Below, one piece after another: positions 1-15,021 of a DNA stretch of 42,203 nucleotides. The notes beneath the pieces were generated by a model that was given only the letters and a program-made list of their open reading frames with translations, was not told where the DNA came from and did not search any database. The translations under genes were made by a program, and so were the position numbers. This DNA comes from a virus. Positions within the stretch are counted from its first letter, which is position 1. Each line of letters begins with the position of its first letter. Where the stretch lies: positions 1-42,203 of the IMG/VR virus record IMGVR_UViG_3300005253_000060; one strand, 5' to 3'.

Positions 1-121
1 CCGCCGCCGACATTGCGCGCATCATACGAATCTCCCCTTCTCATCCCTTCTGGCTTCTATTGTCTTCACCCAAATTGAATCTCGCCATAGCCCTGTCCAT
101 CTGCTCTATTGCATTCACCAA
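1..121. repeat. Terminal direct repeat, left copy (circle closure)
   Basis: These 121 bases are identical to 42083-42203, so the contig closes into a circle of 42,082 bp. The overlap runs through coding sequence: it holds the first 25 bases of the leftward zinc-motif gene (start codon at 25 here, 42107 in the other copy) and the 3' end of the 70-aa gene at 41-253. A short exact overlap within genes is more typical of an assembler closing a circular or circularly permuted genome than of a true packaged terminal repeat, but the sequence alone cannot separate these. Confidence 0.95.
31..53 (-). repeat. Repeated stop/Shine-Dalgarno junction cassette
   Basis: This 23-nt sequence is exactly repeated at 41768-41790, and its inner 14 nt recur at 41932-41945. 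Read leftward it supplies the last codons of one gene (…QKG), the TGA stop, and the purine-rich GAGAAGGGGAG ribosome-binding site of the next gene. It therefore works as a translational-coupling module at successive gene junctions of the leftward operon. Confidence 0.85.
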
Positions 122-253
122 CTGTTTCCCAGAGCGCACTATTTCAAAAACGGCTCGATCCATGCGCTGGATTGTGACTTCGAATCTCTGGGCCAGTTCT
201 TCGTCTCCAAACCACGCTAGACTGCGGCGGATCCGTTCAATCAGTTGTTTCAT
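41..253 (-). CDS. Hypothetical protein, 70 aa, helical
   Basis: A short, charged, probably all-helical protein rich in Glu, Arg and Gln, with no signal peptide, membrane segment or cysteine motif. I do not recognise a family. It is a late member of the leftward operon, lying 18 nt downstream of the 162-aa gene and ending inside the repeated stop/ribosome-binding cassette that starts the next gene across the circle junction. A 16-nt sequence (TTCTGGCTTCTATTGT on the top strand) lies both just ahead of its start codon (254-269) and over its last codons (48-63), so the gene is bracketed by a short direct repeat. Confidence 0.6.
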   Translation of the reverse strand: MKQLIERIRRSLAWFGDEELAQRFEVTIQRMDRAVFEIVRSGKQLVNAIEQMDRAMARFNLGEDNRSQKG

Positions 254-269
254 TTCTGGCTTCTATTGT
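254..269. repeat. 16-nt direct repeat, second copy
   Basis: An exact copy of 48-63. Here it is the untranslated leader immediately before the start of the 70-aa gene; at 48-63 the same bases encode the C-terminal residues DNRSQK of that gene. The pair, about 206 bp apart, brackets the gene and could have allowed its insertion or loss by recombination. Confidence 0.85.
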
Positions 270-271
270 AA

Positions 272-760
272 TCAACGTCTCTTGGGCCGCCGACACACGA
301 AGCAATAGTGCCGGGCAGGGTGATTCGGGACGAAGCGAGAGAGACATTCGGGGTTGCGGCAAAAGCGAACAAGCGAATCGATGATCGCCCCTTCCGCATC
401 TGGATCCGTCAGAAGCATTGTGCCCCGAGTCGTCGCGAGCATGACTGGATTGGCGCCGTCCAACCTTGCGAGCTCAGCGAAAAGAGCCTGGCGGAACGGC
501 TCACCGGCTCGATAAGTGCCATTGCTGTTCCAGATCGAGACGATGTACCTGGGCGAATAGGGCTCGCCGCGGGCGCGTCGTCCCAGTACTTCCGCGGCCC
601 GCTTCCAGGCTCGCGGACCGGGCCGGATCCCCCAGGATCCAAAAAGCTCGGAGAGGCCGTCCCGAATGACCGAATTCGATAACTCGAAGGGTTTATCCAC
701 TTCGGCTACCGTGTCGTGCCTAGAATTGATTGACGCGCTTTGACGCATGTTAGAGATCAC
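272..760 (-). CDS. Zinc-ribbon protein of unknown function, 162 aa
   Basis: The C-terminal 30 residues form a zinc-ribbon-like motif (CRNPEC…YCFVC) followed by a basic tail RRPKRR. The middle is basic and Trp-containing and could bind nucleic acid. The start is a GTG at 760 whose GTGA overlaps the stop of the 35-aa gene upstream, which supports it over the ATG at 748. It belongs to the leftward early operon. I do not recognise the family; a DNA- or RNA-binding accessory protein is an inference from the zinc motif and charge only. Confidence 0.65.
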   Translation of the reverse strand: MISNMRQSASINSRHDTVAEVDKPFELSNSVIRDGLSELFGSWGIRPGPRAWKRAAEVLGRRARGEPYSPRYIVSIWNSNGTYRAGEPFRQALFAELARLDGANPVMLATTRGTMLLTDPDAEGAIIDSLVRFCRNPECLSRFVPNHPARHYCFVCRRPKRR

Positions 761-864
761 TCGTGAACCGCAGATTTCCTCTCACGGAGCAGATCGAAGC
801 GGTGCCGCACCCAATCCCTGAACATCCACCAGCGCACACGGTATCTAATCGGTAGTCTCATCAT
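757..864 (-). CDS. Very small basic protein, 35 aa
   Basis: A short open frame starting ATGATG at 864, read as MMRLPIRYRVRWWMF and so on, rich in Arg and Trp. Its ATG overlaps the TGA of the 98-aa gene (ATGA) and its own TGA overlaps the GTG of the 162-aa gene (GTGA). Perfect 4-nt coupling at both ends, filling what would otherwise be a gap in a gapless operon, is the main evidence that it is real. Function unknown. Confidence 0.6.
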   Translation of the reverse strand: MMRLPIRYRVRWWMFRDWVRHRFDLLRERKSAVHE

Positions 865-1157
865 GCTTTCTCTGCGAGGGCGACGAGCTTTTGGGCCAAC
901 GGTCCATTACGCACTACCCGCCTCCATTCGGTTTTCGTAATCTCTCCAACATAAAGCCTTATGCACGCTTGTTCAATTTCCTCTAGCTTCTCCAACCCCT
1001 CCAACCGCTGTTCGAGGGCGGCTGTGGCTTCGAGCGCTGTGACAGCTTTCCGAACCACCCACGAAGGAACCTCTAGGTCAATCCCGTCTTGAGCAGGGCG
1101 CGGTAGCAAACATTGACGCAAATGCCCTAACGCCTGTTCTGCTAGTTTGTCAGTCAT
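861..1157 (-). CDS. Hypothetical protein, 98 aa
   Basis: An acidic, helical protein. The middle, roughly residues 40-65, is rich in Leu and Glu and may form a short coiled coil (ALEQRLEGLEKLEEIEQ). There is no membrane segment or recognised motif. Its start overlaps the stop of the zinc-ribbon gene by 4 nt and its stop overlaps the next start by 4 nt, so it is translationally coupled on both sides in the leftward operon. Function unknown. Confidence 0.6.
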   Translation of the reverse strand: MTDKLAEQALGHLRQCLLPRPAQDGIDLEVPSWVVRKAVTALEATAALEQRLEGLEKLEEIEQACIRLYVGEITKTEWRRVVRNGPLAQKLVALAEKA

Positions 1158-1360
1158 GCTTCCTCCTCCTGCTCATCGGAGCCATAGCTGCCAGTCGTCA
1201 GGATCTCTTCTGCCTCACTCATCAGGATCAGTTCTCCGATGGCTTCGAGAAGGCACTGCGCGCAGAGCTTCCCCGGTTTGCTCGTGCGCGGCAGCATGAC
1301 GACCCCAAACGAACCGCAGTCTCGGCACCGGATGCTGTAGTCGAATTCCACTGTGCTCAT
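1154..1360 (-). CDS. Small zinc-ribbon protein, 68 aa
   Basis: Two CxxC pairs (CRDC at about residue 12 and CAQC at about residue 33) form a four-cysteine zinc ribbon, followed by a strongly acidic tail ending DEQEEEA. Such small ribbons are common in phage early operons, where they often act as protein or nucleic-acid adaptors. A ribosome-binding AAGGG lies 8 nt before the ATG. Partner and role unknown. Confidence 0.65.
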   Translation of the reverse strand: MSTVEFDYSIRCRDCGSFGVVMLPRTSKPGKLCAQCLLEAIGELILMSEAEEILTTGSYGSDEQEEEA

Positions 1361-1381
1361 GCTAACTACCCTTATCGAAAC

Positions 1382-1693
1382 CTAAAAGTGCCTACTGATA
1401 AGCTCGATCATTGTCAAGTCGCGCTCGCTGAGGCGGTATACCTCGCCAGTGACAATATGCTCCGCGAGCAGGGTGAAGAACTCATGGCGCTCCACGTGCT
1501 TTGCTCCCCGTTCCTTGAAGTTTGCGAGGGGGCTTCCTCCGGTCACTTGCAGATCATCTTTCAATCCCCCAGCCTCAAGGTTTTGAACCTGCAAGCTATA
1601 CCACTCCGCGCGCTCATAGTGATGCCCCGCCTTGGTTCTCAAATGCACAACTAGCTCTGCCGCGTCAAAGTCGAAATGCAATCCTTCAATCAT
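1382..1693 (-). CDS. Hypothetical protein, 103 aa
   Basis: A soluble, His-rich protein of mixed strand and helix character with no signal peptide, membrane segment or recognised motif. A strong ribosome-binding site (GGAGG, 5 nt spacing) precedes the ATG at 1693, which is unusual in this operon where most starts rely on stop-start overlap. Part of the leftward early operon. Function unknown. Confidence 0.6.
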   Translation of the reverse strand: MIEGLHFDFDAAELVVHLRTKAGHHYERAEWYSLQVQNLEAGGLKDDLQVTGGSPLANFKERGAKHVERHEFFTLLAEHIVTGEVYRLSERDLTMIELISRHF

Positions 1694-1728
1694 CGTTTCC
1701 TCCTATGCTTCTGATAAATACTGTTATC

Positions 1729-1824
1729 TCAATCTATGGCCCCAGCAACGGACACCCGATGCTTATGAGGTTCCATCACAAACAGGGGGGATTGTGAGGT
1801 TCGGGTGCCCGCGGCCAAGGTCAT
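1729..1824 (-). CDS. Possible 31-aa protein
   Basis: A short open frame whose ATG (1824) overlaps the TGA of the Mini-A gene (ATGA). It fills the 127-nt space between Mini-A and the 103-aa gene. The translation (MTLAAGTRTSQSPLF…) shows no motif. Only the 4-nt coupling supports it; otherwise this stretch would be an intergenic spacer. Confidence 0.35.
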   Translation of the reverse strand: MTLAAGTRTSQSPLFVMEPHKHRVSVAGAID

Positions 1825-2648
1825 GTGAGTAGTTCCAATGCGTTGCTGATACTTTGGCGTTCTTCCTCTTTTTGGTCATAGTAGACTGTCTGGGATTCCT
1901 CCGGCCATAACTGACGTAGCCGGTTTCTCACGATCTTACGTAAGCGTTCAATAGGCAGGGCCTCAACTTCCCATGCTCTAGCCCCATAAAGAGCTTCGTA
2001 TCCGGGCGTTCGACTATCGGTCGATTTCAAATCAAGGTGCGGAAGGCCTTGGGCCTGTTCCCAGGTCAGAGCCACTCGCTCAACCTCCCAGGACACTCCG
2101 AAGTCGGTTATTAGGTTCGTCTCCAAACTCTCATCAATCACCATACCGCTCGGATCATGATCACCTATGAACAGGACCCGCCGAACGTCTGTATTTAGAT
2201 CGAGGACAATCTTACGGATATGGGACAGCCCAGAGAATCCTCGCCCAGAGACCAATGGACATACGAACTCGTCCGCTATGTCCTCTATTGTCGGAACGAT
2301 CGTGTCTTTCTCGACCCAAAGCAGGCATCCGTGATCCGCCATCGGTGTGTAGTACAAGTGGGCATCCTCTGCAAAATCTGCCAGATTCTTCTCAGTGAAA
2401 TTTCGCTGATAGACTCGCCCGACATCAACTATCCAAGCCCACGGAATGACATTTCTGCGGCGACCCTGCTCCAACGCGGTCTGTATGGCTTTATATGATC
2501 TTCGCTTGGTGCCCTTCTGATCTGGCGGAAGCCAACCCTCGGAGATCGCTACGTAATAGACTTGGCGGACGGTCTGTGGGTGGAATGCGGACAAGACCGC
2601 AGCCGCCCAATCTATTCGCTCGCTAAGTGATTTGCTACCAGTTGTCAT
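1821..2648 (-). CDS. Spo11 / topoisomerase VI subunit A-like protein (Mini-A)
   Basis: A 275-aa protein with both halves of a type IIB topoisomerase A subunit. Residues 26-32 read TVRQVYY, matching the active-site Tyr motif of Spo11 (TVRxxFY); Tyr32 is the expected residue forming the covalent DNA link. The Toprim metal site is complete: Glu113 in WVEKDT and Asp163/Asp165 in GDHDPSG, plus the intervening SGRGFSG loop at 134-140. Proteins of this size without a B subunit (Mini-A) are known in mobile elements; no GHKL ATPase B subunit is seen in this genome. The inferred activity is DNA cleavage with 5' covalent attachment. It is coupled by ATGA to the DUF1064 nuclease gene and lies downstream of sbcD/sbcC. 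A DNA-binding Toprim protein lacking cleavage activity is the alternative. Confidence 0.8.
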   Translation of the reverse strand: MTTGSKSLSERIDWAAAVLSAFHPQTVRQVYYVAISEGWLPPDQKGTKRRSYKAIQTALEQGRRRNVIPWAWIVDVGRVYQRNFTEKNLADFAEDAHLYYTPMADHGCLLWVEKDTIVPTIEDIADEFVCPLVSGRGFSGLSHIRKIVLDLNTDVRRVLFIGDHDPSGMVIDESLETNLITDFGVSWEVERVALTWEQAQGLPHLDLKSTDSRTPGYEALYGARAWEVEALPIERLRKIVRNRLRQLWPEESQTVYYDQKEEERQSISNALELLT

Positions 2649-2956
2649 ATCTCCTCAACCTCGATGTCATGAATTGCGAGCATCAACCTCTTCTTGAGTT
2701 TGTAGATCTGGGTGCGGACTCCCTTTACGTCAACGACCATCTCTCGACCCAGCTCATTGTCGAAGTATTTGAAGTCCGCGAAATAATTGCAGATGTGCGT
2801 GCCGTCGATCTCCAGCTTGAACTTGGGTTGCGTTTCCAGATCCCGAATGATGCCGGCCTGCTGCATGGCCTTGAGGACCTTGTAATGCCTTGCCTCTTTT
2901 TTTGAATGGAAAAAGATACCGTCCACACGCTGAGGAATATTGCTAAACTTGCTCAT
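2645..2956 (-). CDS. DUF1064 family phage nuclease, 103 aa
   Basis: Matches the DUF1064 pattern from end to end: an N-terminal VDGIFFHSKKEARHYKVLK segment, then LETQPKFKLEI, YFADFKYF, and VVDVKGVRT. DUF1064 proteins are small PD-(D/E)XK-type phage nucleases; the Asp of ADFKY and the DVK of VVDVKG are the expected metal and catalytic residues. The gene overlaps the ASCH gene by 4 nt upstream and Mini-A by 4 nt downstream, so it is made together with the recombination proteins. It could process branched or broken DNA made by them (inference). Confidence 0.82.
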   Translation of the reverse strand: MSKFSNIPQRVDGIFFHSKKEARHYKVLKAMQQAGIIRDLETQPKFKLEIDGTHICNYFADFKYFDNELGREMVVDVKGVRTQIYKLKKRLMLAIHDIEVEEI

Positions 2957-3384
2957 CTTGCGAGCTCAAACTCCAATACCCACACTTCGGGATTGTCGTC
3001 CCACCGCTGGCCATTGAGTGTATGGATGCCATCCCAAAGCATCTCGAATTGCTGCCTTAGATCTGAAACCGCGGCGTGTTCTCGATGATAGGTGACCAAC
3101 CCTTCAGATGTGCAATCCTCCGCCGAGATTTCTTGGAGCTGTTCTTTGCGAATGGCAATCAAGCGAATCCGTCCGAGAGATGATTTGCCGCGACCAGACT
3201 GAACGGCATAGTCCTTTCCGACTTCCCAACGCAATCGGTTCCGCGCATCCGTGACTAATGCGGTCGGATAAAACGACCCGGCAGCTCCTGGCTGCGCAAA
3301 TGCTATATCGCCAGGCTTGACTAGTCTTCGGGTTTGAGTTTTCGTACTATCAAGAACGTATCGGTGAGTCTCTTTGAAGATCAT
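2953..3384 (-). CDS. ASCH-domain protein, 143 aa
   Basis: The pattern is typical of phage ASCH proteins: MIFKETHRYVLDSTKTQTRR at the start, YAVQSGRGKSSLGRIRL in the middle (about residues 59-75), EEISAEDC-like ISAEDCTSEGL, and a final NPEVWVLEFEL. ASCH is a small beta-barrel fold thought to bind RNA or modified nucleobases. GGAGG stands 5 nt before the ATG. It sits 14 nt after sbcC and overlaps the nuclease gene. A modified-base reader or hydrolase role is possible but cannot be shown from sequence. Confidence 0.8.
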   Translation of the reverse strand: MIFKETHRYVLDSTKTQTRRLVKPGDIAFAQPGAAGSFYPTALVTDARNRLRWEVGKDYAVQSGRGKSSLGRIRLIAIRKEQLQEISAEDCTSEGLVTYHREHAAVSDLRQQFEMLWDGIHTLNGQRWDDNPEVWVLEFELAR

Positions 3385-3398
3385 TCAAGCCTCCATCG

Positions 3399-5489
3399 TT
3401 ACGCGATCCTGAACTGCGATCCATCTGGGTGCTTCTCGATCTCGATCCGGTCCGGGAAGGCGTCCTTGAGCTCCTCGATGTGGGTGATGACCAGGATCCG
3501 CTCGAAGTCGTCCTGAATGCTGTGGATGGCGGCGACTAGATGATCGCGACCCTGCGCGTCCTGGCTGCCGAATCCTTCGTCGATGAACAGGCTCCGGAGC
3601 TGGGCGCCTGCGCGCCTGGCCAGCAATCTCGAGAGCGCGATGCGCAATGCGAAATCGATGCGGAAGCTTTCACCGCCACTGTAGAGCTCGTAGGGACGGC
3701 TGCCGAGCTCGTCGGAGATCACGATGTCAAGCGCTTCGCGCGTCTCGCCAGTCTTGATTTCGCGCTGGGTTTCAATGCGCACGTGCATTCGGCCGTCGGT
3801 CATGCGGCTGAGCAGCTCATTGGCAGATCGCTCGAGCTCTGGAACCGCGGTCTCAATGATCATGGCCGGCACGCCTGTCTTGCTAAATGCCTTCCGGAGC
3901 TCGTCGTAAATCCCTAGATCGTCGGCCGTCTCGTCTCGGGAGTCCCGCAGATCCTTCTGGCTTCCCTCCAATTGCTCAAGCGCTTCCAGCTTCTGCTTGG
4001 TGCTGCCGACCCGCTGATCCGCGGTGCGGCGTTCCTTTCGCAACCGCTCGAGATCTCCCTCACTCAGCGATCTCTTTCCGAGCAGTTCTCTAGCCTCGCT
4101 AATCTTCTCGTTCAGCTCATCCGTTTCCTCCGACGCTACCGTCTGCTCAACTTTCCACTGTTGCATTTGGACTATCAGTGAGTCCATGCGTTCCCGCGCC
4201 TCGCCCGCGCGCTCGAGCGTGACCTGCAACTCGCCGACCTGCTTCTCGAGCTTCGAGCGGCCCTTGAGATCCCGGTCAAGTTTCTTCTTTTGGCTGTCGA
4301 GCTCGGCCAGCTGCTGATCGAATTCATCAATCCGGATCTGATTGGCCCGGCGATCGTCGCGCAAGCCTTGTAACTCATGTTCGATCTCTGCCGCGACCTC
4401 GGCCCGGTGCTCCTCGGTCAATGGTTCACCGCAGGTCGGACAGACCGGCTCAGTCGCTGATTGGAGTGTGGCCATCCGTTCCTTCAAGGGCGCGGCGGCA
4501 GGTGCCATGGCTTTATTGGCGCCCTTCAAAGATCCGATCTCCTCAGCTATTGCAGCTCGTCGTGTGAGCAACTCTTCGCGCTCTACCTCGAGCGGCGCCA
4601 GGCGACCGAGCCGGTCCTCTACGTCTTGCATCGCTGTCCGAATAGCATCCTCATCTGCCTGTGCCTCGGCCTTATCGCGCTGCTTTTCTGCGTCCGCGAT
4701 CTGCTTTTTCAAAGCTCTGATCTTCGTCGTGAGTCTGGCCAATTGATCGCTCAAGTCCGAAAGGGTGTCGTCGGCTTTCTTCAGGCTCGCCCATTCCTTC
4801 TCAGCGGCCTGCAGTTCTTCGTCAATTTCGCCGGCGCTAACCTCCGCGATGGCTAGTTCATCTTCAAGATCATCCCGCTTTGCGAGCTCGGTCTCGATCT
4901 CTGCGAGTTTCGAGTCAAGCCGGGAGAGCTCCGACTTCGCCATGGCGACGCGTTTCTTGGCGCGGTCCTCATAGTCCTCCCAGATCGAGAGCCCGAGAAT
5001 GTTGCCCAGGATCTGCTTACGCTGAGAGGGGGTCTTGGTCGTGAACTCATCGGCGCGGCCTTGAGCCAGCATGGCGGAGTTGATGAACGTGTCGTAGTCC
5101 AGGTGCAGCAGGTCGTCGATCTTGGATTGCGTTTCTTTGATAGTGGCGCCGGAGAGGCCTTGCCAATCTCCGGCACCGTTGGATGATTGCAGTTCGAGCA
5201 ATGACGCGCCGCGCTTGCCAGCTTTGCGCTGACGGATTACGCGGTAGTGGGCGCCGTCCTGCCGGAATACCAGTGCGACGCGCATATTGTCCTGCCCCTG
5301 GTGGATCAGCTCGTCCGCTGAATTGGATCGAGCCTTGCCCCAGAGCGACCATGTGATCGCGTCTAAGATTGAAGACTTGCCGGCGCCGTTGGGCCCAGCC
5401 AGGCAGGCCACATGGATACCATTCAGGACCAGCGGATCCGGATCCCGATAGGCCAGGAAGTTCTGAAGTTCTAACTCTTCGGGGATCAC
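3399..5489 (-). CDS. sbcC: SbcC/Rad50-type DNA repair ATPase
   Basis: A 696-aa SMC-like ATPase. Walker A is AGPNGAGKSS (residues 31-40). Two coiled-coil arms, about 180-345 and 355-560, flank a zinc hook CPTC (Cys350, Cys353). The ABC signature YSGGESFR and Walker B LFIDEGFGSQD are near the C-terminus, followed by the switch-His motif ITHIEEL. With SbcD it forms an ATP-driven nuclease acting on DNA ends, hairpins and protein-blocked ends. The arms are shorter than in bacterial SbcC (about 1,000 aa), nearer the size of T4 gp46. It starts at GTG 5489, overlapping the previous stop as GTGA. Confidence 0.95.
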   Translation of the reverse strand: MIPEELELQNFLAYRDPDPLVLNGIHVACLAGPNGAGKSSILDAITWSLWGKARSNSADELIHQGQDNMRVALVFRQDGAHYRVIRQRKAGKRGASLLELQSSNGAGDWQGLSGATIKETQSKIDDLLHLDYDTFINSAMLAQGRADEFTTKTPSQRKQILGNILGLSIWEDYEDRAKKRVAMAKSELSRLDSKLAEIETELAKRDDLEDELAIAEVSAGEIDEELQAAEKEWASLKKADDTLSDLSDQLARLTTKIRALKKQIADAEKQRDKAEAQADEDAIRTAMQDVEDRLGRLAPLEVEREELLTRRAAIAEEIGSLKGANKAMAPAAAPLKERMATLQSATEPVCPTCGEPLTEEHRAEVAAEIEHELQGLRDDRRANQIRIDEFDQQLAELDSQKKKLDRDLKGRSKLEKQVGELQVTLERAGEARERMDSLIVQMQQWKVEQTVASEETDELNEKISEARELLGKRSLSEGDLERLRKERRTADQRVGSTKQKLEALEQLEGSQKDLRDSRDETADDLGIYDELRKAFSKTGVPAMIIETAVPELERSANELLSRMTDGRMHVRIETQREIKTGETREALDIVISDELGSRPYELYSGGESFRIDFALRIALSRLLARRAGAQLRSLFIDEGFGSQDAQGRDHLVAAIHSIQDDFERILVITHIEELKDAFPDRIEIEKHPDGSQFRIA

Positions 5490-5857
5490 CGGGCGGCGAT
5501 CTCGAATTCCTGTAATTGGCCATACATGGCATTCACATATTCCTTTGGTATTTGATAATGATCAGGATCAGCTCCAACTTCAGAGGCATTTCCGCAAATG
5601 CTTGTGCCTTGCTCGACCAGTGCTTTCAGCTTGGTCAAGATATTAGAAACGCGCTCAGTTGGGCCATCGCCTAGCTCGATCGGTGGAAGTGGTAGACGTT
5701 GGATTTCTGTCTCGCATTCATCCAGCTTGGCTTCGAGAGCGGCGAAATCTCGAATAATCAAGTTCAAGTCTCCAGTACCAAGCTCGATCGATCCACCGCT
5801 CTTCTGTGCTCTGCGCTCAATCCGTCTCAAAAATATGAGTCCAGCGCTCTCGCTCAT
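5486..5857 (-). CDS. Unknown 123-aa protein encoded between sbcD and sbcC
   Basis: The protein is mostly helical with heptad-like Leu/Ile spacing around residues 25-55 and 65-90. It has no membrane segment or catalytic motif. Its start overlaps the sbcD stop (ATGA) and its stop overlaps the sbcC start (GTGA), so all three proteins should be made in similar amounts. Position between the two subunits of a complex suggests a third subunit or regulator of SbcCD (inference); no known family is recognised. Confidence 0.65.
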   Translation of the reverse strand: MSESAGLIFLRRIERRAQKSGGSIELGTGDLNLIIRDFAALEAKLDECETEIQRLPLPPIELGDGPTERVSNILTKLKALVEQGTSICGNASEVGADPDHYQIPKEYVNAMYGQLQEFEIAAR

Positions 5858-7065
5858 AGCAATAACTCCTCCGCCCGCTCGACCAGCACTTCAATCCGAT
5901 CCGGGCTCATATCCTTCGACTGAAAATAGGTCTCCAATAATTGCAGTGGGGTGAGGGTCTCAACCGCCAGATCTCCGAGGCGCGTGCGTGCTTCTTCCTC
6001 GATCTCTCGGATGATGCTCAGGCTGGATACGTTCGGAAGCGATGCTTGGATCTCCCGGTCGTTGAGCGCCGGAGACTGATCGGGGCGCATGGTGAAAATG
6101 ATCCGTACTACGGCCTCATCGAACGCCAACTCTGGCAGCATCTCAAGAAACGATTCGGTCGGATCATCGATTTCGGCCGCGGTCGTGTCGATCCGGATCG
6201 TGACAAATTCGCGGGCCTGGACCGGGACAAACGACCAGGATGTCTTACCGTGCTCAAGCTCGACCCAGCAGAAGCCCTTCTCTTCCTCCTGCTCACCGAA
6301 GTCGATCCGCTCGAGAGAGCCGCTATAGACAACGGGCGGCTGTTCGCTGAGGACCTGATGTTTATGAATGTGACCGAGGGCAACGTAATCCCAGGCTGGA
6401 TCCGCAAGCACATCGAGATTGACGGCGACGTCGCGGCCGATCATGACCGCGCGCTCCGATCCGAACACAGCCTGGTCCACAGTGAAATGGCCGGCCAGGA
6501 CGCGGGGCATATCATGTTCGTCGGCCTGGCGGGCCAGGTCCTTGACGATCGCGGTCACGGCCTCGCGCAATGCGAGCTCGAGCTCCTCGATCGACTTGCC
6601 CTGATTGTCTCTATTGGAGAGCAAGCGGTTCCGCATGGGATACGGGAGCCAGGCTAGATAGACAGGCCCACTGCTCGTCTCAACGATCTGCCCTTCGGGT
6701 CGATTGCCGAGGATTACACCTGGAACATCGAGCGCGCCAAAGATGTCGATGCTGTTGGCGCGCGATGCGATGCCCGGGGCGTCGTGATTGCCCACGAGTA
6801 GAAGGGTGGGGACTTCATCTGCCAGGCGCTTGATGCGGCGGGCGAACTCCCGCAAAAGCGTAGGGTTCGGATCACGTTTGTGGAAAGCATCTCCCGCAAA
6901 GACCACCAGGTCGGCCTTTTCGTTGAGTGCGTAGTCAACGACCTCATCAAGGCGTTCAAGGAAATCGCCGACGCGGGTCGATAGGCCGGTGGCAGGATCG
7001 GGTCGGCTATGACTTTCGACGCCCAGGTGAAGGTCGGCAAAATGCAGCATCTTTATTCCTGACAT
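5854..7065 (-). CDS. sbcD: SbcD/Mre11-type nuclease
   Basis: A calcineurin-like metallophosphoesterase with every Mre11 motif in order: ADLHLG near the start, FAGDAFHKRD at about residue 60, GNHD at about residue 95, AGHF near 195 and GHIHKHQ near 230. These supply the two-metal site for 3'-5' exonuclease and endonuclease cleavage. The C-terminal 130 residues fit the capping and SbcC-binding region. The start is uncertain: a TTG at 7071 overlaps the recT stop, the ATG at 7065 is used here, and an ATG at 7050 has the better-spaced AGGA. Partner of the sbcC product. Confidence 0.94.
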   Translation of the reverse strand: MSGIKMLHFADLHLGVESHSRPDPATGLSTRVGDFLERLDEVVDYALNEKADLVVFAGDAFHKRDPNPTLLREFARRIKRLADEVPTLLLVGNHDAPGIASRANSIDIFGALDVPGVILGNRPEGQIVETSSGPVYLAWLPYPMRNRLLSNRDNQGKSIEELELALREAVTAIVKDLARQADEHDMPRVLAGHFTVDQAVFGSERAVMIGRDVAVNLDVLADPAWDYVALGHIHKHQVLSEQPPVVYSGSLERIDFGEQEEEKGFCWVELEHGKTSWSFVPVQAREFVTIRIDTTAAEIDDPTESFLEMLPELAFDEAVVRIIFTMRPDQSPALNDREIQASLPNVSSLSIIREIEEEARTRLGDLAVETLTPLQLLETYFQSKDMSPDRIEVLVERAEELLL

Positions 7066-7067
7066 GA

Positions 7068-8177
7068 TCAATCGGCCTTGCCCATAGCTTTGGCCATCGC
7101 CATCGCTTCCGCTGCGGCCTCGACATCCTTGAGAAGGATCCGGCCTTCCTTGCCCGTACCCTGGATCGCTCTCAATTGAATGTCGTGCTTGCCTGCGAAC
7201 TCTATTGCGCCGTCGGTAGCATCGATCGACGACTCCGGAGCCAGGCCATCTAGCGGGCCATACTTGTTGATAATGAAAATTAGTGAATCTGCCCAGGTGC
7301 TGAGTTCCTTTTTAATGGCCTGCCCCTCGTCGGTATCGACGCCGAAGTGATTGGCGATTAGCCAGAATTGCGTGGAGCCGATCTCGTAGGGTTTCTTCGT
7401 CGCTAGATCGCGAGCTTCCTTCAGCATGTCGAGGGCGCTAGTATCTTCCGCAGTTTCCTCTTCCTTACCGTCCTCGCTACCGAAGAGAGTCTCCGTGGCC
7501 TCGGTCGCCTCCTCCTCGCCATTGGATCCATTCTCGGGATCTTCTTCCAGCGTCCACTCGCCCGCGATGATGGGGCCGGTTGGTTCACTCGGGACGGCAA
7601 ACGGAAGATCGAAGCGCCGCTTCAAGGCATCAGCCTCAGATCGTTTCATGGCTACCTGGATTGGATCCATTCGAGTCGACTCGCCGTCCTTGATGTATCC
7701 GACGCCGGTCGAGTAGGGTCGCTTACCGAGCACTTCCGGGATGATCTCTACTGGCACACCATCTTCTTTCAATCTCTTCCAACCGTCCGAATAGGTCCGG
7801 ATCGTTTCACTGTCGCGGATGATGCACTTGAAGGCCAGGGCCTTGTCTGGGATCATGAACAGGTTACGTTCGTCGGGATCCGTGATTTCTAGAAACTCAG
7901 TCCAGAAGCTGCCGTCGATCTGCTGGCGGGCAGCTTTGCGCAATCCCTTGATGCCAGCCATGAGACCGGATCCAGGGATGTACCAGATCTCGCCGTTGAA
8001 TGGATCGAGGCCGTGCGCGATGGCGCCCTGGGCGAGGGCGAGTGCTTCATTCTCATCGAGCCTCTTGCCGCCCGGTGCCATTAGCTGGACGCGCCTGGCG
8101 ATCTCGCGGAGCTCCTTACGTTCGCCCCATGGCGCAATTCGGGATTCGTTCGTGGGAACTATGGCTGTCTTATCCAT
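7068..8177 (-). CDS. recT: RecT-type single-strand annealing protein with an E3-binding-like C-terminal domain
   Basis: Residues 20-215 fit the RecT/Redβ family: a helical start, then AHGLDPFNGEIWYIPG (55-69) and GLMAGIKGLRKAA (71-83). Such proteins coat single-stranded DNA and anneal it to complementary strands. An acidic linker (about 215-250) leads to a second helical stretch, and residues 318-357 resemble the peripheral-subunit (E3) binding fold (ATDGAIEF…IQGTGKEGRILLKDVEAA). The family usually ends soon after the annealing core, so this 369-aa form is extended. It overlaps the first operon gene by 8 nt and is next to sbcD, forming an annealing-plus-nuclease pair. Confidence 0.85.
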   Translation of the reverse strand: MDKTAIVPTNESRIAPWGERKELREIARRVQLMAPGGKRLDENEALALAQGAIAHGLDPFNGEIWYIPGSGLMAGIKGLRKAARQQIDGSFWTEFLEITDPDERNLFMIPDKALAFKCIIRDSETIRTYSDGWKRLKEDGVPVEIIPEVLGKRPYSTGVGYIKDGESTRMDPIQVAMKRSEADALKRRFDLPFAVPSEPTGPIIAGEWTLEEDPENGSNGEEEATEATETLFGSEDGKEEETAEDTSALDMLKEARDLATKKPYEIGSTQFWLIANHFGVDTDEGQAIKKELSTWADSLIFIINKYGPLDGLAPESSIDATDGAIEFAGKHDIQLRAIQGTGKEGRILLKDVEAAAEAMAMAKAMGKAD

Positions 8178-9691: not shown

Positions 9692-10621
9692 TTACTTGAC
9701 TCCCATGATTCTGGACATTGGGCTGTAGGGCTCAAAGTCCATCGGAGTGAGAGCCTGTGAGTAGCGCTCCACCTCCTTCACGGATCTCCAGCGACCGGCG
9801 AGTTGTACTAGCCGAGTAGGCGCACCGCCCTGCAAACTCAACGTGGCGAAGCTCCTACGAAAGTCGTGCGGGGAAACCAATCCAATTCCAGACTCCTTTC
9901 CTAGATGTCGGAGGATCGCACCCAGCCCGTTTCGCGTGAGCGAGGTTCCGGGCTTGTTTCCTCCTACGGATACGAAGACGGTGGAAGCGCGGGCATAGCT
10001 CTCCCTCACCGCGAGCCAGTTCGCCATTGCCGCCTGCGTGTAACGGCCAAACACCGCACCGCCGATACGACCTCCCTTTATGCGCACAACCAGCGATTGA
10101 GCTTCAAGATCAAAGTGCGCCAGCTCTAGCCGACAGATTTCCGAAGCTCTCAATCCCGTGTCGAGCAAGAGACTGATGAGGGCGAGGTCTCGGACGCCTT
10201 TAGGCTGGCTGGTATCCAGGTGACCGAGCAATTGATCCACCTGGGCCACGTTCAACGTGCGTTGAGGGGTGGGGTGGCGCTTCGGGAAGGGGATTGTTTC
10301 TGCGGGGTTGTCCTGGCCAATGCACCATCTGAAGAACAGCTTTAGGGCACAGATGGCGACGTGCTGAGTGGCGGGGCTCAAGTTTCTAGCTCGTATCCAG
10401 TCTCGGAGGTCCTCGGTGTTGACCAGATGCGGATCATGAATGTCAAAGTTTCCAAGCCACATGATCGCGTTGTAGAGGTGGCGTTGGTAGTGCTCGATCG
10501 TTCGTTTAGAAAGGGTGGATTCTTTCTCTAATATGAAACTTTCAAGCAAATCAAACATCTCCTTTTCCTCACTAGTTGGGGACATCTCTTCACCTTCCTT
10601 GGCGGGCTGCGGACTCGGCAT
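9692..10621 (-). CDS. int: Tyrosine recombinase (phage integrase)
   Basis: A 309-aa protein with an N-terminal SAM-like core-binding domain (about 20-110) and a catalytic domain carrying Arg158 (TGLRASE), Lys182 (IKGGR), His252 and Arg255 (SPHDFRRSFAT), Trp278 in the second-His position (GRWRS) and nucleophile Tyr287 (VERYSQ). The set is complete. It catalyses site-specific integration and excision between attP and host attB. There is no arm-binding N-terminal domain of lambda type, so it resembles the simpler XerD-like integrases. A second start at 10585 also has a good ribosome-binding site. It is transcribed away from the replication block from its own promoter. Confidence 0.93.
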   Translation of the reverse strand: MPSPQPAKEGEEMSPTSEEKEMFDLLESFILEKESTLSKRTIEHYQRHLYNAIMWLGNFDIHDPHLVNTEDLRDWIRARNLSPATQHVAICALKLFFRWCIGQDNPAETIPFPKRHPTPQRTLNVAQVDQLLGHLDTSQPKGVRDLALISLLLDTGLRASEICRLELAHFDLEAQSLVVRIKGGRIGGAVFGRYTQAAMANWLAVRESYARASTVFVSVGGNKPGTSLTRNGLGAILRHLGKESGIGLVSPHDFRRSFATLSLQGGAPTRLVQLAGRWRSVKEVERYSQALTPMDFEPYSPMSRIMGVK

Positions 10622-11218: not shown

Positions 11219-11521
11219 ATGTCTAACTACACCTACACCCAGCTGGTCGGCTACAGAGAGCATGTCCTTTCTGGAAAAGCCACCAGTCAGCGCAACCGAA
11301 TCTTGATCTGCTTATTTGAGTCGGCGGTGCCTCTGACGCGCCTGCAGATTTCGAAGATTACGGGAATCCGCCTGAGCTCGGTGTGCGGCCGGGTCAATGT
11401 GCTCTTGAAATCAGACTTGATTCACATCGCTTACGAGGCTGAGGATCCGGCGACGGGGAAGCTCGCTGAGTTTATTGAGCCCGCCTGGCCTCAGCTACAG
11501 CAGAAGGAGTTGTTTCCGTGA
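11219..11521 (+). CDS. Winged-helix DNA-binding protein
   Basis: About 100 aa. The centre reads as a MarR/HTH_27-like winged helix (SQRNRILICLFESAVPLTRL, QISKITGIRLSSVCGRV, NVLLKSDLIHI). The ATG at 11219 is chosen; the frame also opens at 11198. A 14-nt perfect hairpin, GTGACattcGTCAC (11204-11217), sits between a possible AGG ribosome site and the start and could be a translational or transcriptional control element. As the first soluble gene of the replication block it may regulate or help initiate replication. Its last 4 nt overlap the next gene. Confidence 0.65.
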   Translation: MSNYTYTQLVGYREHVLSGKATSQRNRILICLFESAVPLTRLQISKITGIRLSSVCGRVNVLLKSDLIHIAYEAEDPATGKLAEFIEPAWPQLQQKELFP

Positions 11522-11724
11522 GCGGTCAGGTGATACGAACCAAGCCCGAACCCTATTGCCTCGAGTGCGGCGCAAAGATGGTTTTGCGGAGGCCTGGCCC
11601 GTCCCATGATTGGAATGCGTTTTGGGGCTGTTCTCAATACCCCGAATGCAAAGGGAGTCGCAACATCGGCTCCGATGGCTCGCCCGAATATCCCGAGCGG
11701 CAAGGGCTTGTGGTTAGCCGGTGA
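11518..11724 (+). CDS. Topoisomerase-type zinc ribbon protein, 68 aa
   Basis: A stand-alone zf-C4_Topoisom ribbon: CLECGAKMVLRRPGP, then FWGCSQYPECKG, the pattern found in the C-terminal repeats of bacterial topoisomerase I. Phages often encode it as a single small protein that may bind single-stranded DNA or recruit a partner. It begins with GTG inside the GTGA overlap with the winged-helix gene and ends in a GTGA overlap with the DUF4031 gene. Confidence 0.8.
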   Translation: MSGQVIRTKPEPYCLECGAKMVLRRPGPSHDWNAFWGCSQYPECKGSRNIGSDGSPEYPERQGLVVSR

Positions 11725-13971: not shown

Positions 13972-14150
13972 CCGAGATCGCGCTTACCGAGGCGTACGAT
14001 CGCCTGGTGGCCATTGCGCGAGCGAACGCCAAGAACAGTGCGCTGTTGGTGCTCTATGCAGAGGTTTTGAGGAAGCACGTTGCGGAGCTCGAGACCGAGG
14101 TTGAGGAATTACGGCGGAGGCTAACTCTGAATGAATCAAATACCGATTGA
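13968..14150 (+). CDS. Small coiled-coil protein, 60 aa
   Basis: A short helical protein; residues 30-52 (YAEVLRKHVAELETEVEEL) have clear heptad spacing. It starts in an ATGA overlap with the zinc-ribbon gene and its last 20 nt overlap the ParB-like gene in a different frame. Function unknown. Confidence 0.55.
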   Translation: MTEIALTEAYDRLVAIARANAKNSALLVLYAEVLRKHVAELETEVEELRRRLTLNESNTD

Positions 14151-15021
14151 TCACGTGGCGCCGGATCCGGACCAGCCGCGGCAAACCTTCAGCAACGAAT
14201 CGCTGGAGGAGCTCGCAGCATCGATCCGCGAACATGGCGTAATCCAGCCAATCGTCGTTGAGCCCAATGGTTCCGGCACGTACGTCATTCAAGCCGGCGA
14301 GAGACGCTGGCGCGCCGCTCAGATCGCCGGCCTAACGGAGATCCCGGCTTTCGTCGGGAGCTCGACGCCAGACACCGAGGATCGCTTTGTTCGGGCGCTT
14401 GTCGAGAATCTGCAGCGGGAAGATTTGAACCCGATTGATGAGGGCTATGCTTACGCGCGGCTGCAGGAAGCCGGGTTGAGCAATATCAAGATCGTCAGGT
14501 TGTGTGGTGTTTCCCCTCCCCGAGTTGCCGCGCGCCTGATCCTGCTCAAGCTGGATCCGAAGATACAGCAGCTGGTCGCCGCCGGCGAGCTGTCCAAATC
14601 TCCTGATGTGGCCAAAGCACTGCTGAGTATTCCCGATCAGGATGCTCGCGTGGAGTACGCGAAGCGGTCCGCTAAACGTGGATTAACTATCAAGGGGATC
14701 GTTGCCGGCTGCCGGCGGATCATCACCTTGCTGGAGGCGGATGCGCTTGAGAGGGGGAAGACCCCATCGCTCAATATAGCAACCCGGCGCCGGGCTTCCG
14801 AGTGGAATCTCGTCAAGCAGATCGAGCTGGACCTGGAAGGCCGCATGCCTCCCTGGCAGACTGTAGAGCTGGCGGCAGAAAAGACCTGTCAGGGCTGCTC
14901 GCTGCTGGATATGGCCTCGATCGTCGTTTGTGGCAACTGTCCGGGGGTTGAGCTCGTGGCCCACATGATCGAACTGGAGGCCAACCGTGTCCGAAAACGA
15001 CATGCTCGAGCAGCTGATTGA
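14131..15021 (+). CDS. ParB/Spo0J-like protein with C-terminal zinc motif
   Basis: A 296-aa protein. Residues 3-100 are the ParB N-terminal (CTPase-like) domain with PDPDQPRQTF, HGVIQPIVV, GERRWRAAQIAG and VENLQREDLNPI motifs. A helix-turn-helix follows (SNIKIVRLCGVSPPRVAARL). The C-terminal 60 residues carry CQGC and CGNC, a probable zinc site unlike the usual ParB dimerisation domain. No ParA partner is seen. Stand-alone phage ParB-like proteins may act as regulators or nucleases rather than in partition. Confidence 0.85.
   Translation: MNQIPIDHVAPDPDQPRQTFSNESLEELAASIREHGVIQPIVVEPNGSGTYVIQAGERRWRAAQIAGLTEIPAFVGSSTPDTEDRFVRALVENLQREDLNPIDEGYAYARLQEAGLSNIKIVRLCGVSPPRVAARLILLKLDPKIQQLVAAGELSKSPDVAKALLSIPDQDARVEYAKRSAKRGLTIKGIVAGCRRIITLLEADALERGKTPSLNIATRRRASEWNLVKQIELDLEGRMPPWQTVELAAEKTCQGCSLLDMASIVVCGNCPGVELVAHMIELEANRVRKRHARAAD

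Follow-up and report, generated by a model that had tools for sequence, protein, structure and literature searches.

A very divergent phage Mini-A protein, a probable stand-alone Topo VI-A/Spo11-type DNA-cleaving enzyme, encoded in an SbcD/SbcC operon

Introduction

In the A subunit of topoisomerase VI (Topo VI-A) and in Spo11, the tyrosine of one subunit acts together with the metal site in the Toprim domain of its partner subunit (PMC11746154, PMC11922746). A salt bridge between R102 and E342 restrains cleavage in Topo VI, and E342Q cuts more (PMC13040014). Truncated Top6A homologs of bacteriophages and archaeoviruses have been described in reviews under the name Mini-A (PMC7614492, PMC8185306, PMC11302465), with Pseudomonas phage NP1 as a drawn example (PMC7614492). 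Mini-A is widespread in phages; as of 2021, archaeal Mini-A had no demonstrated biochemical activity (PMC8185306), and the literature that we searched yielded no biochemical study of Mini-A.

Here, we describe a Mini-A gene in the viral record IMGVR_UViG_3300005253_000060 (42,203 nucleotides; the whole stretch analyzed is referred to as the window), which also holds integrase, terminase, portal, and tape measure genes. We propose, with a probability of roughly 0.7, that this divergent Mini-A is a truncated enzyme of the Topo VI-A/Spo11 type that cleaves DNA as a stand-alone protein, most likely a homodimer, and feeds recombination/replication. What is new here is a very divergent branch of the family, a probably retained clasp pair, and the last place of the gene in an overlapping SbcD/SbcC operon.

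Results and Discussion

Identification of the Mini-A protein

The open reading frame was called and translated from the minus strand of the record, a strand that the initial annotation had left unstated, and encodes 275 aa (Table 1), comprising a winged-helix domain (approximately residues 1 to 80) that holds Tyr32, a Toprim domain (approximately residues 105 to 247), and then a C-terminal helix. Single-sequence searches of Pfam, NCBIfam, and the PDB with this protein gave no significant match, and its kinship was detected through PHROGs, profile comparison, and structure comparison. The protein matched PHROG 6247, labeled "DNA topoisomerase" (E = 1.9e-31), which also matched the Methanosarcina acetivorans control genome (Mini-A or Topo VI-A), and BLASTP aligned it with gp49 of Pseudomonas phage NP1 (E = 3e-21; 28% over 249 columns). 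Relatives were found by tblastn in 70 deposited phage records, several of which are labeled "DNA topoisomerase." Relatives are also present on 54 contigs from viruses and on no fewer than 80 from bacterial or archaeal genomes, the archaeal ones including Nitrosopumilus, Nanoarchaeota, and Micrarchaeota. Because of the PHROG label, the 70 phage records, the reviews naming Mini-A, and the homology to NP1, this kind of protein is already known; judged by its sequence, the window protein belongs to the described Mini-A family, in which it is very divergent. It is directly homologous to the NP1 protein and shares with Mini-A its size, the truncated Topo VI-A layout of winged helix and Toprim domain, the catalytic residues, the viral location, and the lack of a B subunit in the window.

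The only close relative of the window protein is L002 (84% identical). In the Mini-A tree, the two group together with full support on a branch 3.5 substitutions per site long, and their mean identity to other Mini-A proteins is 25%, compared with 44% among the others, an isolation that consensus-motif sampling may exaggerate. Unlike other Mini-A proteins, both have a shorter N terminus and lack the DMTRD stretch that follows GDHDPSG as well as the PPPNPAK stretch. The window copy differs additionally in its SbcCD operon setting.

Table 1. Positions of the Mini-A gene, its motifs, and the other genes of the operon in the window
Feature	Position	Strand	Remarks
Mini-A gene, 275 aa	1821..2648	-	Winged helix, Toprim domain, and C-terminal helix
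TVRQVYY, residues 26-32 (R28 and catalytic candidate Y32)	2553..2573	-	Align with Topo VI-A R102 and Y106 (numbering, PMC13040014)
E113-K114, Toprim glutamate	2307..2312	-	Aligns with E202 of M. mazei Topo VI-A
GDHDPSG, residues 162-168 (D163 and D165, Toprim DxD)	2145..2165	-	Alignment and translation
WEVEA, residues 226-230 (E227, probable equivalent of clasp glutamate E342)	1959..1973	-	Weak register (P = 0.0015); PMC13040014
DUF1064 protein	2645..2956	-	PHROG 190 "Holliday junction resolvase"; 4-bp overlap with Mini-A
143-aa protein ("ASCH" of the initial annotation)	2953..3384	-	PHROG 874; no Pfam match
SbcC/Rad50-like ATPase with zinc hook	3399..5489	-	Profile matches
123-aa protein	5486..5857	-	No match in any library used
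SbcD/Mre11-like nuclease	5854..7071	-	TIGR00619 above its cutoff
Possible RecT-like annealing protein with C-terminal E3_binding-type domain	7068..8177	-	RecT match weak

Catalytic residues and fold

The motifs noted in the initial annotation (TVRQVYY at residues 26 to 32, E113, D163, and D165) are in place in the minus-strand translation, with E113 inside the stretch LLWVEKD. The pattern R[DQ][LIV][YF]Y occurs in 1 of the 353 open segments of at least 60 aa in the six frames of the window, and that segment is the Mini-A protein. Across an alignment of 45 Mini-A homologs, mostly 22 to 28% identical to the window protein, R28, Y32, E113, K114, D163, and D165 are invariant, as are G162 to M169 and E227; WEVEAL of the window protein matches the family motif WELDAL in this alignment, a candidate for the C-terminal motif by which Mini-A is told apart from Topo VI and Topo VIII. 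Most relatives were recruited by the pattern GDHDPSGM, and the conservation of that pattern is thus partly built in, whereas R28/Y32 and E113 played no part in recruiting the viral-contig relatives. The same residues are near-invariant in a larger set of 128 Mini-A sequences, of which the genome-contig relatives were picked by GDHDPSGM plus RQ[LI]YYQ.

Comparison of these 128 sequences with 44 Topo VI-A sequences (hhalign; P = 9.4e-6; 83% probability) brought the motifs into register, with R28/Y32 on R102/Y106, E113 on E202, and D163/D165 on D254/D256 (M. mazei numbering from PMC13040014). This set supersedes an earlier comparison with just five Topo VI-A sequences, which was weak (P = 0.0057). 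The N-terminal domain by itself gave a P value of 6.7e-5, and the C-terminal part placed E227 weakly at the position of E342. The alignment starts near Topo VI-A residue 64, and the N-terminal segment of Topo VI-A has no counterpart in the Mini-A protein. Pfam matches of Mini-A members were weak (TOP6A-Spo11_Toprim, 0.0022; TP6A_N, 0.022). The invariance among the 45 homologs and the placement of the residues on those of Topo VI-A bear out the claim that the protein carries a complete Topo VI-A/Spo11 catalytic set.

The AlphaFold2 model of the protein (pLDDT, 88.7; pTM, 0.75) had as its top Foldseek match in the PDB 1d3y, the Topo VI-A of M. jannaschii (E = 2.4e-4; probability, 1.0). With VIA-align, residues 105 to 247 matched 1d3y best (Z = 12.7; 139 residues aligned; rmsd, 2.9), followed by M. 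mazei Topo VI-A (Z = 11.9), MksG (11.2), JetD (10.8), and Spo11 (9.5). The N-terminal domain, when modeled alone, was a winged helix that matched residues 71 to 141 of 1d3y (Z = 6.4; 63 aligned; rmsd, 2.7), a generic fold for which this Z score ties with those of unrelated proteins such as Zur (Z = 7.0). Among viral models, Foldseek ranked a phage primase and an unnamed protein highest (E of about 5e-3); these matches are weaker than the Topo VI-A match and are consistent with a common Toprim fold. A structural comparison with Topo VI-A and Spo11 had been suggested in the initial annotation, and it placed Topo VI-A ahead of Spo11. The same annotation would have taken a Tyr32 far from the Toprim site of a single chain as evidence against the assignment; this distance is unsuitable as a test because the tyrosine of Topo VI-A and Spo11 uses the metal site of the other subunit (PMC11746154, PMC11922746).

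The protein thus has the catalytic residues, Toprim fold, winged helix, and probable R-E clasp of the Topo VI A subunit and differs from it in that, by alignment, approximately 65 residues at the N terminus are missing, as is any B subunit. With Spo11, it shares the kind of residues, the fold, and presumably an action free of an ATP gate; it differs in that no partner of the Rec102/TOP6BL type was detected and in being phage encoded rather than meiotic, a context that argues against an orthologue of eukaryotic meiotic Spo11. Topo VIII is likewise a type IIB relative on mobile elements but carries an ATPase part, whereas the 275-aa window protein consists of the A-type region only, with no GHKL match.

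Predicted activity and alternative explanations

Searches of the window with GHKL/HATPase and Topo VI-B transducer profiles gave no match (the 42.2-kb contig is possibly incomplete), and the GHKL ATPase B subunit that defines Topo VI is accordingly missing from it, as the initial annotation had stated; archaeal control genomes do match in these searches. Neither HATPase_c nor Topo-VIb_trans matched any of 45 Mini-A records, and HATPase_c_3 had one match above its cutoff and one below. Mouse SPO11 dimers cleave DNA without partners (PMC11922746), and the missing B subunit is therefore compatible with activity and does not in itself demand a partner. The fold, the catalytic residues, the absence of a B subunit, and the operon are supported by sequence and modeling, and catalysis by the window protein is likely.

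We infer dimerization, cleavage, the clasp, and the biological role as follows. The protein would most likely be a metal-dependent homodimer acting in trans, in which the winged-helix Tyr32 of one chain would attack DNA held at the E113/D163/D165 metal site in the Toprim domain of the other, giving 5'-phosphotyrosyl breaks with no need for ATP. A salt bridge between R28 and E227 would probably restrain the tyrosine, as in Topo VI, until the DNA is properly bent. Since R28 and E227 are conserved counterparts of R102 and E342, the same control of cleavage is predicted, and Mini-A probably shares the clasp of Topo VI and Spo11. The breaks would most likely be used by the early module for recombination/replication encoded in the same operon (SbcD, SbcC, the possible RecT-like protein, and the DUF1064 nuclease).

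The strongest competitor, which we hold to be possible though less probable, is that the protein works as a genuine topoisomerase that needs no ATP, relaxing or decatenating phage DNA through reversible cleavage and leaving no lasting breaks. Topo VIII of M. marina relaxes DNA without ATP (PMC7614492), SPO11 cleavage is reversible (PMC11922746), genes of Mini-A relatives occur in replication regions, close to those for ligase, polymerase, or helicase, and PHROG and GenBank labels read "DNA topoisomerase." These labels, however, are homology-based annotations, and an ATPase or strand-passage subunit is absent from the window and almost absent among relatives. A specific partner encoded next door, for which the initial annotation had put forward the 143-aa "ASCH" protein or the 123-aa protein, is quite unlikely. 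Both genes share the overlapping operon, but a homolog of the 123-aa protein lies near none of 138 other Mini-A loci and one of the 143-aa protein near a single locus. Among 97 immediate Mini-A neighbors, no single PHROG had more than three matches (an integrase), and the commonest family in a clustering of Mini-A surroundings, a helicase-like one, occurs in nine loci; genes for recombination or replication are frequent among the neighbors (Sak4, ligase, Cas4 exonuclease, and polymerase). An obligate neighbor-encoded partner was rejected because no neighbor family recurs across Mini-A loci. The stand-alone A-type catalytic protein without a B subunit posited in the initial annotation thus stands; the proposed partnership with a neighbor does not, and the protein, being Mini-A, is not novel.

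A nuclease of an SMC-type effector or defense module resembling JetD/MksG (the Wadjet nuclease), driven by the neighboring SbcC ATPase, is very unlikely. Its Toprim fold is close to that found here, MksG cleaves in a stand-alone, ATP-independent manner, SbcC is in the same operon, and a JetD3 profile matched weakly (E = 0.011). MksG, by contrast, has no tyrosine candidate in its winged-helix, 5Y-CAP-equivalent domain (PMC10123090), whereas Y32 is invariant in Mini-A and aligned with Y106 of Topo VI-A; the neighboring ATPase is of the SbcC/Rad50 type with an SbcD partner, and most Mini-A phages lack SbcC (matches in 13 of 45 records, usually far from Mini-A). No JetABC genes were identified in the window, where JetC matches were weak and confined to coiled coils. 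It is highly improbable that catalysis has been lost and that the protein bends or binds DNA: the family motifs DMTRD and PPPNPAK are gone from the surroundings in the window branch, but all catalytic residues are kept in both the window protein and L002 despite the very long branch. We therefore retain the DNA-cleaving enzyme as the preferred reading.

Operon with SbcD and SbcC

The Mini-A gene is the last of seven genes that run in the same direction from that of the possible RecT-like protein, with 4-bp overlaps and one 14-bp gap; the 123-aa gene lies between SbcC and SbcD with a 4-bp overlap on each side. The RecT assignment is weak (PHROG 2780, E = 0.038; Pfam RecT, E = 0.2). The same protein carries an E3_binding-type domain (PF02817, E = 6.2e-6, above the cutoff), an unusual combination in an annealing protein of a phage.

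Within the 45 records, SbcC lies within 5 kb of Mini-A in the window and L010 only, and SbcCD adjacency was seen in the window and 1 of 138 other loci. The L002 record has no SbcC match. An SbcCD association as a trait of the Mini-A family was rejected, given that the context is not conserved in relatives. No SbcD relatives were found in the viral contigs searched, and 22 records with relatives of the window terminase, mostly fragments, contained neither Mini-A nor SbcC and gave no useful co-occurrence control. In L010, one long open reading frame (25-3276), 4.6 kb from Mini-A, matches both the SbcC and the SbcD of the window, which suggests, at the sequence level, a fused SbcD-SbcC protein.

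A role for Mini-A in phage recombination/replication is plausible, with a recombination role weakly supported because the SbcCD context is not conserved. The operon might be a phage counterpart of meiotic break and repair, in which Spo11-like breaks are made, SbcC/SbcD free the protein-capped ends, the RecT-like protein anneals, and the DUF1064 protein resolves. We consider this unlikely and treat it as a lead, since SbcCD is near Mini-A just in the window and L010 and is absent with L002. If it were true, the phage would deliberately initiate its own recombination through a meiosis-like operon. Mini-A beside Mre11/Rad50 homologs is a natural place to test the use of Spo11-type breaks in phage recombination.

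Elsewhere in the window, a ParB-like protein (14131-15021, plus strand) and an integrase (9692-10621) are those of a temperate phage, and a 68-aa stand-alone topoisomerase-type zinc ribbon is encoded at 11518-11724 on the plus strand (PF01396, E = 6.2e-8).
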